Shown one piece after another: positions 21,860 through 27,100 of a stretch of DNA of 64,000 nt. Source of the stretch: Chloroflexota bacterium. GTDB taxonomy: Bacteria; Chloroflexota; Anaerolineae; Aggregatilineales; Phototrophicaceae. The stretch lies in assembly GCA_016223085.1 (NCBI GenBank), contig JACRPS010000011.1, positions 124,001-188,000 of the forward strand, written 5' to 3'. Numbering within the stretch: the stretch's first letter is position 1; the number at the start of each line of letters is the position of its first letter. The notes beneath the pieces are model-generated. The model worked only from the letters and a program-made list of their open reading frames with translations, was not told the origin of the DNA and made no database searches. The translations under genes were made by a program, and so were the position numbers.

Positions 21860-22954
21860 ATGGAAAGTTTAATCAGCCTGTTGAACAGCATGAAACACCG
21901 GGTAGATGGGCTGATGGCGCAGCTAGATATAAAGGGCAAAGCTGCCCGCATCCAGCAGCTTGAGGAAACCTCCGGCGCGCCCGACTTCTGGAATGACCCC
22001 GACGCCGCCCAAAAAACGATGCAGGAAATCGCCCGCCTCAAGGAAGAGGTTGACCGTTGGCAGAGCCTTGCCACGCGGGTAAACGACGCGCTGGAACTGG
22101 CGCAGTTGGACGACCGCAGCCTGCTGGATGACCTGACAGCCGAGGTGAACGCGCTGTCGGAAACGGTCGAACGCATGGGGCTGCAAACGCTGCTCTCCGG
22201 CCCGTATGACCGCGAGAACGCGATTCTCGCCGTCCACGCTGGAGCGGGCGGCACGGATTCGCAGGATTGGGCGCAGATGCTGGAACGGATGTACCTGCGC
22301 TGGGCGGAAGACAACGGCTACAAGGTGGAAATTATCGAACGCAGCGAAGGCGAAGAAGCCGGTATTAAAAGCGTGACGATGAGCGTGAAGGGCGAATACG
22401 CCTACGGCTACCTGCAAAGCGAACAGGGTGTGCACCGGCTGGTGCGTCTCAGCCCGTTTGACGCCGCGCACCGCCGCCATACATCGTTTGCCAAAGTGGA
22501 ACTGTGGCCGGATATTCAGGGCCAGATTGATATTGAAATTAACGAAAACGATTTAAAAATTGACACCTACCGCGCCGGCGGCGCAGGTGGCCAGCACGTC
22601 CAGAAGAACGATACGGCGGTGCGGATCACACATATCCCTACCGGCATCGTCGTCCAGTGCCAGAACCAGCGCAGCCAGATGCAGAACCGCGAACGCGCCC
22701 TGCAAATCCTGAAGGCGCGGCTGTTTGAAATCGAGCGCCGCAAGCAGGAAGCGCAGTTGGCGGCGCTGAAGGGCGAAAACGTCAGCGCCGAGTGGGGCAG
22801 CCAGATTCGTTCCTACGTGTTGCACCCCTACCAGATGGTAAAAGACCACCGCACCGACTACGAAACCGGCAACACCACCGCTGTGCTCGATGGCCGCCTC
22901 AATGAATTTATGGACGCCTATCTGCGCGCCAAGGTGGTGCCGCAGGCCGGGTAA
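21860..22954 (+). CDS. prfB: Peptide chain release factor 2
   Basis: 364 residues. It has the RF2 codon-recognition motif in VRLSPFDAAHRR and the catalytic GGQ in AGGAGGQHVQKND. The front half has the coiled domain with SGAPDFWNDP. It releases peptides at UGA and UAA. Many prfB genes need a +1 frameshift at an in-frame UGA near codon 25; here that region reads straight through (GCG CAG CTA GAT ATA), so this self-regulation is absent. The ATG at 21860 follows GGAGG by 16 nt, a long spacing. A TTG at 21827 is an alternative start but would place the GGAGG inside the gene. Confidence 0.95.
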   Translation: MESLISLLNSMKHRVDGLMAQLDIKGKAARIQQLEETSGAPDFWNDPDAAQKTMQEIARLKEEVDRWQSLATRVNDALELAQLDDRSLLDDLTAEVNALSETVERMGLQTLLSGPYDRENAILAVHAGAGGTDSQDWAQMLERMYLRWAEDNGYKVEIIERSEGEEAGIKSVTMSVKGEYAYGYLQSEQGVHRLVRLSPFDAAHRRHTSFAKVELWPDIQGQIDIEINENDLKIDTYRAGGAGGQHVQKNDTAVRITHIPTGIVVQCQNQRSQMQNRERALQILKARLFEIERRKQEAQLAALKGENVSAEWGSQIRSYVLHPYQMVKDHRTDYETGNTTAVLDGRLNEFMDAYLRAKVVPQAG

Positions 22955-23010
22955 CAACATCTCGTTTCTGGCACTTGTGTAGCCATTTCGATGACGATCA
23001 TAAGCAATTT

Positions 23011-23038
23011 TTGACACGGCGCACGCCGGTGTTATAAT
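23011..23038 (+). promoter_or_regulatory. Consensus sigma70 promoter for candidate ncRNA
   Basis: TTGACA (23011-23016), 16 nt, TATAAT (23033-23038): both boxes match the consensus fully. Transcription would start near 23045, with no open reading frame of note before the terminator at 23180-23207. Confidence 0.8.
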
Positions 23039-23044
23039 CCCTGC

Positions 23045-23208
23045 CTGTCACGCTCAACGGAACATCATTTTTATGTCATTGGTTAAGTTCGCTGTGTGTT
23101 GTTGTGCCTTCCGCGCTCATTCTGGACGTGGCAGGTACGGGCACGCATAGCGACAGACCGATTCTCGGTTGTGTAAGAAAGCCCCGGCTGCACGTCGGGG
23201 CTTTTTTA
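23045..23208 (+). ncRNA. Candidate structured small RNA (about 165 nt), class unknown
   Basis: The stretch lies between a consensus promoter and a rho-independent terminator and codes for nothing evident. By eye it folds compactly. CTGTC(AC)GCT at 23045-23054 pairs with AGCGACAG at 23149-23156, enclosing at least two inner helices. One is GAAC/GTTC at 23060-23063 with 23087-23090. The other is GTGCC/GGCAC at 23104-23108 with 23140-23144, carrying CCGCG/CGTGG on top. A 5-bp hairpin, ACCGA-TTC-TCGGT, follows at 23157-23169, then the terminator. It has no 4.5S GGAA tetraloop pattern and no tmRNA or RNase P signature. It could be 6S-like, or an attenuator leader of the carbonic anhydrase gene that starts 35 nt after the terminator. 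Confidence 0.55.
23180..23207 (+). terminator. Rho-independent terminator
   Basis: AGCCCCG (23180-23186) pairs with CGGGGCT (23196-23202) across a 9-nt loop and is followed by six T. It ends the candidate ncRNA and lies upstream of the carbonic anhydrase start. Confidence 0.85.
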
Positions 23209-23242
23209 TTGCCTGTTTAATGGACGATTGGAGTGAAGCCAA

Positions 23243-23824
23243 ATGAGTACCATTCTAAACGAAGTTCTGTCTGCCAATGAAGCCTACGCCGCCTCGTTCG
23301 GCGATAAGGCCGAGCTGCCTCTACCGCCGGGAAGGCGCTTTGCCATCCTGACATGTATGGATGCTCGTCTCGACCCGGCCAAATATGCTGGTCTGAGCGA
23401 AGGCGATGCCCATGTCATCCGCAATGCTGGCGGTCGCGCCAGCGACGATGCCATCCGGTCGCTGGTGATCTCACACAAGCTGCTCGGCACGCGGGAATGG
23501 TTTGTCATCCACCATTCCGACTGCGGCATGGAGTATTTTACGGACGAGATCATGCGCGATCTGCTCTCGAAGAGTCTGGAAACGGCAGTTGTTGACGAAC
23601 ACGGCTGGCACGACGTGGGCAATGGCCCCGGTTCCCCCGAAGGGCGTTATATTGACTGGCTGACCATACACGATCAGCGGCAGAGTGTGGTGGACGATGT
23701 GCTGCGCATCCGCAACCATCCGCTGGTTCCTCGGTCAATCCCGATCTACGGCTATATTTACGATGTCAAAAGCGGTCGGCTGATCGAAATCCCGGAAGCG
23801 ACAGCAGCCGGGAAAGCCGTTTGA
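23243..23824 (+). CDS. Beta-class carbonic anhydrase
   Basis: 193 residues, GGAG nine bases before the ATG. Zinc ligands appear as cysteine in [10 protein letters not shown] (about 38), and histidine plus cysteine in HHSDCGM (about 91-94). The D-R pair of CMDAR is also present. It interconverts CO2 and bicarbonate in the cytoplasm and belongs to the small beta-CA group of about 190 residues. No operon partner is evident. A terminator lies 36 nt upstream, so expression may depend on read-through of the upstream structured RNA or on an unseen promoter. Confidence 0.92.
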
Positions 23825-23973: not shown

Positions 23974-24002
23974 TTGACACCATGTAGTGTTCTCCATATA
24001 AT
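23974..24002 (+). promoter_or_regulatory. Consensus sigma70 promoter for rpoC
   Basis: TTGACA (23974-23979), 17 nt, TATAAT (23997-24002), both perfect. The start site near 24009 leaves a 177-nt untranslated leader before the TTG start at 24186. The rest of the 361-nt gap 23825-24185 holds only palindrome 6 and this leader. Confidence 0.82.
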
Positions 24003-24008
24003 TTTTCC

Positions 24009-24185
24009 TACAAATGGTCACGAATTGGTTCACCCGGTAAGAATGGCAGCGGTGGAAAGGTTTTCCATTCGCCGTTTTATCGTTGGTGGCGGATGCTTTA
24101 CTCCACGTTCAGCCGTTGTGTCAACATCTTGTCTGTACGGACACCCACAGGTTCAATAGCTCGTTAGCGCAGAGGAGGACACGCC
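24009..24185 (+). promoter_or_regulatory. Long 5' leader of rpoC
   Basis: A 177-nt untranslated region between the predicted start site and the TTG codon. It ends with a strong ribosome site AGGAGG (24173-24178) seven bases before TTG, and contains a small GGAAAGGTTTTCC hairpin near 24055. Long leaders on beta' genes can host autoregulation. I recognise no known riboswitch or protein-binding mimic. Confidence 0.4.
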
Positions 24186-27100
24186 TTGGAAGCGAAGGAT
24201 TTCAGCGCACTGCGCATCAGTCTGGCGTCGCCGGAACAAATTCGTTCCTGGTCATACGGGGAAGTGACCAAGCCGGAAACCATCAACTACCGCCGCCTGC
24301 GCCCGGAGAAGGATGGTCTGTTCTGCGAAGCCATCTTTGGTCCTACCCGTGACTGGCAGTGCTACTGCGGTAAATATAAAAACGTCCGTTATCGCGGCAT
24401 CGTCTGCGATAAGTGCGGCGTTGAAGTCACCCGTGCCTCCGTGCGCCGCGAACGTATGGGGCATATCGAACTGGCCGCGCCCGTTGCCCACGTCTGGTAT
24501 ACCCGGCGCGTGCCCAGCTACCTGGGGCTGCTGCTCGACGTGAGCCGCCGCAATCTCGACCGAGTGCTGTACTTCGCCCAGTACGTCGTCACGCACGTGG
24601 ATGAAGAAGCCCGCAACAAGGCGCTGGCCCGTATCGAGCGCGAAGTCGCCCAGAAAGAAACGATGATCGGCGGCGACATTGAAGACCAGCATGCCGTCAT
24701 CCGCAGCGAACGGGATACCGCCCTGGGTGAACTGGAAAGCCGCGCCCAGGCGATCAACAGCCATTATGACAGCGAACTCAGCCGCCTGAGCGACGAAGTG
24801 ATGCAGGAAGCGCAGTCGGTGCAGAACCGCGTTGAATCCCTGCTGGGACAGGTCGCCCCGGCGGACATCAACTTCAGCAAGACCAATACGGTGATTGTTG
24901 CCAAAGGCGAAGTTGTCGAAAGCGACAGTATTTCCCGCATCCAGTCGGTTGTCAATAATTATCTGAGCGATCTCCAGTCCGAAATTGAAGACCTGCGCCA
25001 GAACGACCTGAAAAATCTCGACCAGGAAGCGGACTCGATCTCCAGCGAAGCCGCCACCACGATGGAAGGCCAGCGGTCAGAACTGGACACGCGCCTCCAG
25101 CAGATTCGCCAGGCCGCCGAGAAAGCCCGCTCCGAATTGCAGGATTTGCACGTCCTCCAGTTCCTGTCGGAAACGCGCTACCGCGAACTCAAGAGCCGCT
25201 ACGGACAGGTGTTCCAGGCGGATATGGGCGCGGAAGCGTTTTATAAAATTCTGCAAAACATGGAGCTGGAACGGCTGGCGAAAGAACTGTGGCACGAAGT
25301 CCGCACCACCCGTTCCAAGCAGCGCAAGAAAAAAGCGACCAAGCGCCTGCGTGTGGTTGAAAGTCTGCGCAAGAGCAACAACCGGCCAGAATGGATGATT
25401 CTGACGGTGCTGCCGGTCATCCCGCCTGACCTGCGCCCAATGGTGCAGTTGGACGGCGGTCGGTTCGCCACCAGCGACCTGAACGACCTGTACCGCCGCG
25501 TCATCAACCGGAATAACCGTCTTAAGCACCTGCTGGAACTGGGCGCGCCGGATGTGATCGTGCGCAACGAGAAGCGAATGCTGCAGGAAGCGGTGGACAG
25601 CCTGATTGACAACAGCCAGCGCGGCAAGGCGCTCAGCCGCCGGGGCCGCCGCGAACTGAAGTCGTTGAGCGATATGCTCAAGGGCAAGAAGGGACGCTTC
25701 CGCCGTAACCTGCTTGGCAAGCGTGTGGACTACTCCGGTCGTTCGGTGATTGTGATCGGGCCAAAGCTGAAGCTGCACCAGTGTGGTCTGCCGAAGACGA
25801 TGGCGCTGGAACTGTACCGCCCGTTTGTTATCAGCCGGCTCGTGCGCCACAACTACGCCAGCAACGTGAAGGGTGCCAAGCGCATCATCGAGCGTGAAAA
25901 GCCGGAAGTGTGGGAAGTTCTGGAAGAAGTCATCAAGGAACGCCCGGTCCTGCTAAACCGCGCCCCTACCCTGCACCGCCTGGGTATTCAGGCGTTCGAG
26001 CCGCAGTTGGTGGAAGGCAAGGCAATTCAGATTCACCCACTGGTGTGCGCGGCCTTTAACGCTGACTTCGACGGCGACCAGATGGCCGTTCACGTGCCGC
26101 TGAGCGACAAGGCCGTGCAGGAAGCGCGCGAACTGATGCTGAGCACCCGCAACCTGCTTAAGCCCGCCGACGGCCAGCCAATTGTCGGCCCGTCGAAGGA
26201 CATGGTGCTGGGCAACTACTACCTGACCATGGACCCGACGGTCGAGATCATCTCGCGCCAGGACCGCGCCGACGACTTCCGCACCATGAGCGTGCTGAAC
26301 GAAGGCCGCTTTCGCGTGGGTATCGCGTACCGCACGCCCGGTTACTACTACGTGCAGAACCACGAGGTTCCCGGCGTTGTCCTGTTTGAGGATGTGACCG
26401 AAACCGACGCCAACGGCCGCGTGAAGGTTGTGGAAAAGGCGATTGACCGTACCATCCGCGCCGTCGTCGAAGGCGAAGTGGACTGCATGATCGCCAACGC
26501 TTACGAGATGAAGAAACTCATGAAGAAGCGTAAGCTGGACGACGTGCTGGAAATCGCCAACCTGCACGAACGCCGCCACGTGGTGGATATGGACGAGGTG
26601 GAATACCTGTACAACCTGGGCATGGTCGGCCTGCACACGCCAATTCTGCTGGGCAATGTGTACGACACGCGCAGCCCGCAGGCCGAACCGGAGATCACTA
26701 CTGTCGGGCGGGCAATCTTCAACCGCATCCTGCCGGATGAAATGCGCTTCGTGCAGGACACGATGGGCAAGAAGCCGCTGCAGGACCTGGTTGCCAAGTG
26801 CTACCAGAAGCTGGGCGCGGACCGCACCACCGACGTGGTGGACGCGATCAAGAACCTCGGCTTCCACTATGCCACCATCTCCGGCACGACGATTGCCGTC
26901 GCCGACCTCACCATCCCGGAGGAACGCAAGGACATCCTGGCAGAGGCCGAAGGTGTGGTCGAACGCGCCGAACGTGACTTCCGGCGCGGTCTGCTGACCG
27001 AGGAAGAACGCTACCAGATCACGATTGACGAATGGAACCGCGCCAAGGACCTGCTGCAGGACAAAATCAGGGGCGCGCTCGACCCGTTCGGGCCGATTGC

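Follow-up and report, generated by a model that had tools for sequence, protein, structure and literature searches.

Positions 23011-23208 of the stretch of DNA analysed here (64 kb in full, below "the window") very probably form, as far as can be judged from sequence, the 5′ leader of a carbonic-anhydrase-like (CA) gene, acting as a cysteine-responsive leader-peptide transcription attenuator; on the best reading, this leader would belong to a Cys regulon in Anaerolineae. The support for this consists of a promoter, a short ORF, a run of Cys codons, a hairpin, a terminator, the lack of a second promoter-like site, and recurrence before cysteine genes; from these we infer translation of the ORF, ribosome stalling, antitermination, and the direction of control. 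The leader peptide, overlooked by an earlier sequence-only reading of this DNA, is likely the key to function. The elements are as follows.

23011-23038, + strand: promoter of the leader, TTGACA-N16-TATAAT, exact consensus
23073-23150, + strand: predicted leader-peptide ORF of 25 codons, MSLVKFAVCCCAFRAHSGRGRYGHA*, from the ORF listing and a Cys-cluster/terminator detector
23097-23105, + strand: uninterrupted run of three TGT (Cys) codons, codons 9-11 of 25, the proposed sensing site
23091-23151, + strand: predicted long hairpin (1:2) with the Cys codons in its 5′ arm and the ORF end in its 3′ arm, from MFE folds
23130-23143, + strand: candidate antiterminator strand, partner 23180-23192, duplex −14.8 kcal/mol
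23173-23209, + strand: intrinsic terminator hairpin with U-tract at 23202-23207, from MFE folds and the detector
23243-23824, + strand: beta-carbonic-anhydrase-like (CA) gene, 193 aa, by Pfam PF00484 (Pro_CA)

The promoter, which had been described as perfect, is indeed exact: nowhere else in the window does an exact consensus match have a 16-nt spacer, and a consensus scan of 22900-23300 found no other promoter-like site. Allowing spacers of 15-19 nt adds one further exact match in the window, TTGACA-N17-TATAAT at 23974-24002; this second perfect promoter lies ~180 nt 5′ of an rpoC-like ORF (window 23974-24186), a distance that would imply a long 5′ leader there. Transcription of the leader studied here probably starts near 23045. 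The RNA from 23040 to 23210 has an MFE of −72.9 kcal/mol (z −5.58), equalled by none of 200 dinucleotide shuffles, in keeping with the structured RNA that had been proposed. The helix said to close it, CTGTC (23045-23049) with GACAG (23152-23156), is present in the MFE fold of this piece, as is a small hairpin at 23157-23169, but is absent from that of a longer piece extending into the CA gene.

The terminator is present as was claimed, with a G+C-rich hairpin followed by TTTTTT ending at 23207; it is missing from the output of a consensus scanner run over 22900-23300, probably owing to a stem that extends into the U-tract. The CA gene starts 35 nt past the terminator end, and since the scan of 22900-23300 shows no other promoter-like site between the two, the element is better taken as a 5′ leader than as a free small RNA.

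The 165 nt thought to be without a plausible gene contain the 25-codon ORF, lying between promoter and terminator, with its Cys-Cys-Cys run at codons 9-11. The window has 43 long ORFs (called mechanically), in which 135 of 19,857 codons are Cys; at that frequency such a run would arise in 25 codons with a chance of ~7e-6. A strict detector (ORF of 10-45 codons, three or more Cys in a stretch of 8 residues, stop codon followed 10-130 nt later by a terminator) matched this unit and nothing else on either strand of the window, and found none in 30 shuffled windows. Over the 20 Cys-coded leaders described below, the Cys codons are 68 TGT to 13 TGC, vs. 34 to 101 in the window's long ORFs (Fisher p 1e-17), which served as reference for all 20 though the leaders span several genomes; the window's own genome has three leaders, with 12 to 2 (p 1.3e-5).

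A mechanism can be proposed. The RNA would begin at ~23045, and ribosomes would translate the 25-codon peptide. With ample Cys-tRNA, a ribosome would pass the three Cys codons and reach the stop codon, where it would cover the 3′ arm of the long hairpin; the terminator would form, and transcription would end before the CA gene. With Cys-tRNA scarce, the ribosome would stall at TGT TGT TGT, opening the long hairpin and freeing its 3′ arm; the freed strand would hinder the terminator, and the CA gene would be transcribed. The net effect would be a CA gene switched on when cysteine is short.

The long hairpin, in the predicted fold, holds the control codons where a stalled ribosome would open it. 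Pairing of the Cys region with the downstream leader exceeds that of shuffles at this locus (p 0.002); over 19 leaders (the 20 less the near-duplicate from G100, here and in the other 19-leader tests) the combined Fisher p is 3.6e-8, the relatives not being independent. Taken singly, 9 of the 20 leaders reach p<=0.05, while G012 has p 0.90. By analogy, a Cys-codon hairpin with its 3′ arm over the ORF end would fit trp-type logic.

At this locus the candidate antiterminator (23130-23143 with 23180-23192) does not pair better than shuffles, whether by duplex energy (p 0.56) or by partition function (p 0.78); over the 19 leaders the values are 0.016 and 0.074, respectively. By partition function, antiterminator pairing is higher with a stalled ribosome than with one at the stop codon in 13 of the 19. 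In equilibrium folds with a stalled ribosome, the terminator still wins in eight of the nine leaders that precede CA genes, and is lost only in G012. From these models it seems rather doubtful that this particular candidate operates.

One rival possibility is a Cys-sensing leader whose main effect is on CA translation, with the end hairpin being incidental or a partial stop. The chance-level antiterminator at this locus speaks for it, as does mycobacterial precedent, the Cys-rich uORFs there being said, in the parts of that literature available to us, to act by translation attenuation. It is nevertheless improbable: a canonical U-tract terminator is present both here and at the other eight CA leaders, and in the fold predicted for 23045-23300 the ribosome-binding site of CA forms local pairs, with an equilibrium probability of pairing with the leader of <=0.05 at every base of 23226-23245.

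The unit recurs before CA genes of relatives. CA matches occur in five of the 17 genomes of the genus, as four close orthologues (76-100% identity) and, in G008, distant homologues only (35%). All four close orthologues (L008-L011) have promoter, leader, and terminator followed by CA; their upstream neighbour gene differs, and rpoC lies downstream in G000 and G015. A suspected tie to prfB was rejected: in prfB neighbourhoods of the 17 genomes the leader does not accompany that gene, which in G015 is found one gene further upstream. Directly before the distant CA homologues of G008 (L012 and L014) is a common block, CTTGACTTTGACGT.ACG.AAAACTGTAGAGTGACGACATCGCTTTGA, which we take to resemble long-spacer MerR-type promoters.

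Across the order, 15 CA places were found in 13 of 154 genomes, nine of them with a Cys-rich leader ORF and a U-tract terminator (in G000, G012, G014, G015, G051, G098, G099, G100, and G030). Five pass the strict detector (G000, G012, G014, G015, G030), and the other four were recognised by eye; at the remaining six places, including the second CA copy of the window's genome (L013), no leader was seen. In G030 two CA genes lie in tandem and the leader precedes the second of them, with ~250 nt between terminator and gene; at this site (L045/L054, G030:C86) the Cys leader (QCCLCQC) and its terminator stand between the two CA genes. The nine leaders diverge beyond alignment in sequence and structure while the Cys-rich ORF persists; their peptides are mostly dissimilar to each other outside the Cys residues, and no conserved RNA sequence core is apparent by eye. 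In a DNA-similarity search with the leader RNA, 5 of 98 family genomes match; besides the window's own, only the match in G015 (partial, 72%) sits at a CA gene, and the remaining matches are 32-34 nt long, three of the four on the terminator end.

Further afield, CA relatives were examined on 80 named genome contigs, many from methanotrophic gammaproteobacteria; a detector match before CA occurred only in L099, apparently the G012 contig already counted (two, L107 and L123, have <60 nt of upstream sequence); some others have weaker Cys-containing ORFs without a terminator. In the class, CA was found in 13 of 396 genomes. No leader ORF was seen by eye at L135-L137, L140, L142, or L143. The loci L138, L139, and L141 (one genus, family f11) have pre-CA ORFs ending PCSCR*, TCLCR*, and LCLCS* (pattern CxC[RS]*), with no U-tract terminator evident by eye; these are possibly Cys leaders of another mechanism.

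This recurrence bears on the alternative of a free-standing structured small RNA with its own promoter and terminator, in which the ORF is accidental. The locus does look like a complete transcription unit, strongly folded and with a perfect promoter. However, its terminator ends 35 nt before a co-oriented gene without a promoter-like site of its own, the unit recurs with CA, and it is the Cys-rich ORF that outlasts the divergence of sequence and structure; these points, with the occurrence of this kind of ORF before cysK and cysH (below), make an accidental ORF very improbable and a new free-standing RNA class, one of three options in the sequence-only reading, unlikely. Nor does an Rfam covariance scan turn up a routine identity, with none of 4227 families reaching its gathering score in the window. 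The second option was a 6S-like RNA. 6S RNA is of similar length and also has a long hairpin, but the leader here contains an ORF, is tied to one gene, and has no 6S match even at E<=10, where 22955-23245 gives 13 weak matches, none of them credible. The third, a leader attenuator, is the one that the leader ORF, the terminator, and their recurrence favour.

Cysteine genes carry comparable leaders. Three families were searched in eight leader-bearing genomes (G000, G012, G014, G015, G051, G030, G098, and G099; G100 was left out). A Cys-cluster ORF precedes a terminator at 11 of 21 cysK-family places, five of the terminators being found by scan and the others by eye; among the peptides, those of G000 and G015 contain ..TCCCPCC.. 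and those belonging to a second group of cysK have ..CCCLKRG[AR]*, and at L153 and L165 ~240 nt separate terminator and gene. The ten leaderless places are longer (487-509 aa) or weaker-scoring homologues. For PAPS-reductase, the architecture is present at one of three places, in G014, where two leader-terminator units in tandem (L144, G014:C308, reverse strand, ~1090-1390) are followed by cysH and cysC, with ATP-sulfurylase further on; directly before ATP-sulfurylase itself, a leader was recognised at none of six places. A CCCxCC pattern with one mismatch was also tried as a genome-wide leader finder, matching 262 places in the window's own genome vs. 73 for a reversed control; it proved of no use because the excess is dominated by codon content (the cysK leader of that genome is among the 22 exact matches listed).

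When sampling was widened to 58 cysK loci from the class and phylum (57 with >=400 nt upstream), three showed a leader with its terminator on inspection by eye (L212, L216, L235), L212 also by the detector, and four a Cys-rich ORF but no recognised terminator (L205, L214, L233, L240); the trait is therefore confined, in these samples, to part of the class. Applied to 203 loci (884 kb), the strict detector gave four matches away from CA, cysK, and cysH: L004 has two that share a terminator, and L058 and L120 have one each. The L004 unit (G045:C78, reverse strand, 1389-1530) is a Cys-cluster ORF with terminator that has a response regulator further down and no recognised sulfur gene next to it.

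Two other readings can be weighed against these results. The metal-binding capacity of Cys clusters and the zinc usually present in CA enzymes might suggest that the ORF encodes a functional Cys-rich (e.g., zinc-binding) mini-protein; this is hardly credible for CA leader peptides with so little in common besides Cys, given similar Cys clusters before cysK and cysH, and searches of Pfam (with the MSLVKFAVCCCAFRAHSGRGRYGHA peptide) and NCBIfam (with the nine leader peptides) returned no family. A metabolite riboswitch of a new class, which the strong structure and terminator before an enzyme gene might suggest, has equally little to recommend it, the common element of the nine CA leaders being the Cys-rich ORF and not an RNA core visible by eye.

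The gene downstream had been called a carbonic anhydrase gene, and its protein does score 42.2 bits against PF00484 (cut-off 25.7). Among PDB structures, the best relatives carry the label carbonic anhydrase (5ztp, E 2.7e-44; Rv1284 is among them), followed by COS hydrolase (3vqj, 1.5e-29) and CS2 hydrolase (3ten, 5.1e-26). The genes under related leaders, cysK and cysH, belong to the cysteine pathway; the link of the CA gene is indirect, through G012, where the operon continues into a rhodanese and then a SufE protein. Cys control and this rhodanese-SufE operon suggest that the enzyme does sulfur work, e.g., releasing sulfide for CysK. The fullest version of the attenuator reading is more tentative, and may well fail in some part: a trp-type Cys transcription-attenuation regulon in Anaerolineae, with tandem attenuators before a sulfate-assimilation cluster and a CA-family member that is a sulfur-acquisition enzyme (such as a COS/CS2 hydrolase feeding sulfide to CysK) and not a bicarbonate enzyme.

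For work on uncultured Anaerolineae, cysteine limitation becomes a concrete signal to seek, and the 20 Cys-coded leaders with terminators are now available as test objects; the linking of a CA-family gene to sulfur metabolism likewise supplies candidate substrates for assay. The locus is also an example of a leader ORF hidden in what looks like a structured small RNA.

Attenuation by leader peptides is classical for several amino acids. Like the leader here, attenuators of the trp/his/ilv type have a promoter, a short ORF enriched in codons of a single amino acid, a hairpin over those codons, and an intrinsic terminator soon after the ORF, followed by the gene (biosynthetic in that type). Unlike in that type, the amino acid here is cysteine, the host a member of the Chloroflexota, and the gene a carbonic anhydrase homologue, while the antiterminator is only a candidate.

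Leader-peptide systems were earlier known only from Proteobacteria and Actinobacteria, with Firmicutes added later, according to the available portion of Naville and Gautheret (2010; PMC2965389); ilvB1 of M. tuberculosis is described as a leader-peptide transcription attenuator in the part of PMC13236596 accessible to us. Searches of the open-licence literature gave no leader-peptide attenuator with an intrinsic terminator for cysteine biosynthesis. In the excerpts available from it, there was no Cys transcription attenuator, in Chloroflexi or elsewhere, and no related report on cysK leader peptides with cysteine codons or on leader-peptide/cysteine attenuation of carbonic anhydrase; on cysteine-responsive attenuating uORFs, these excerpts comprised M. 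tuberculosis work and a review of leaderless translation, and the cysteine-directed attenuation they describe is translation control by mycobacterial uORFs.

Those polycysteine uORFs, short Cys-rich ORFs upstream of sulfur genes (Shell et al., 2015, in the text available), are the closest in kind: as here, a Cys-rich short ORF lies 5′ of sulfur genes and is a proposed or shown cysteine sensor (Shell et al., 2015; Canestrari et al., 2020, through citing papers). One of the latter, PMC13236596 (2026), cites Canestrari et al. on M. smegmatis, for control of its cysteine genes by translation attenuation, again in the portion available. The mycobacterial type would have the ribosome-binding site covered by the leader, whereas in the predicted fold here it is clear of it; and unlike in the mycobacterial uORFs, as far as the accessible text describes them, an intrinsic terminator here separates the ORF from the gene.
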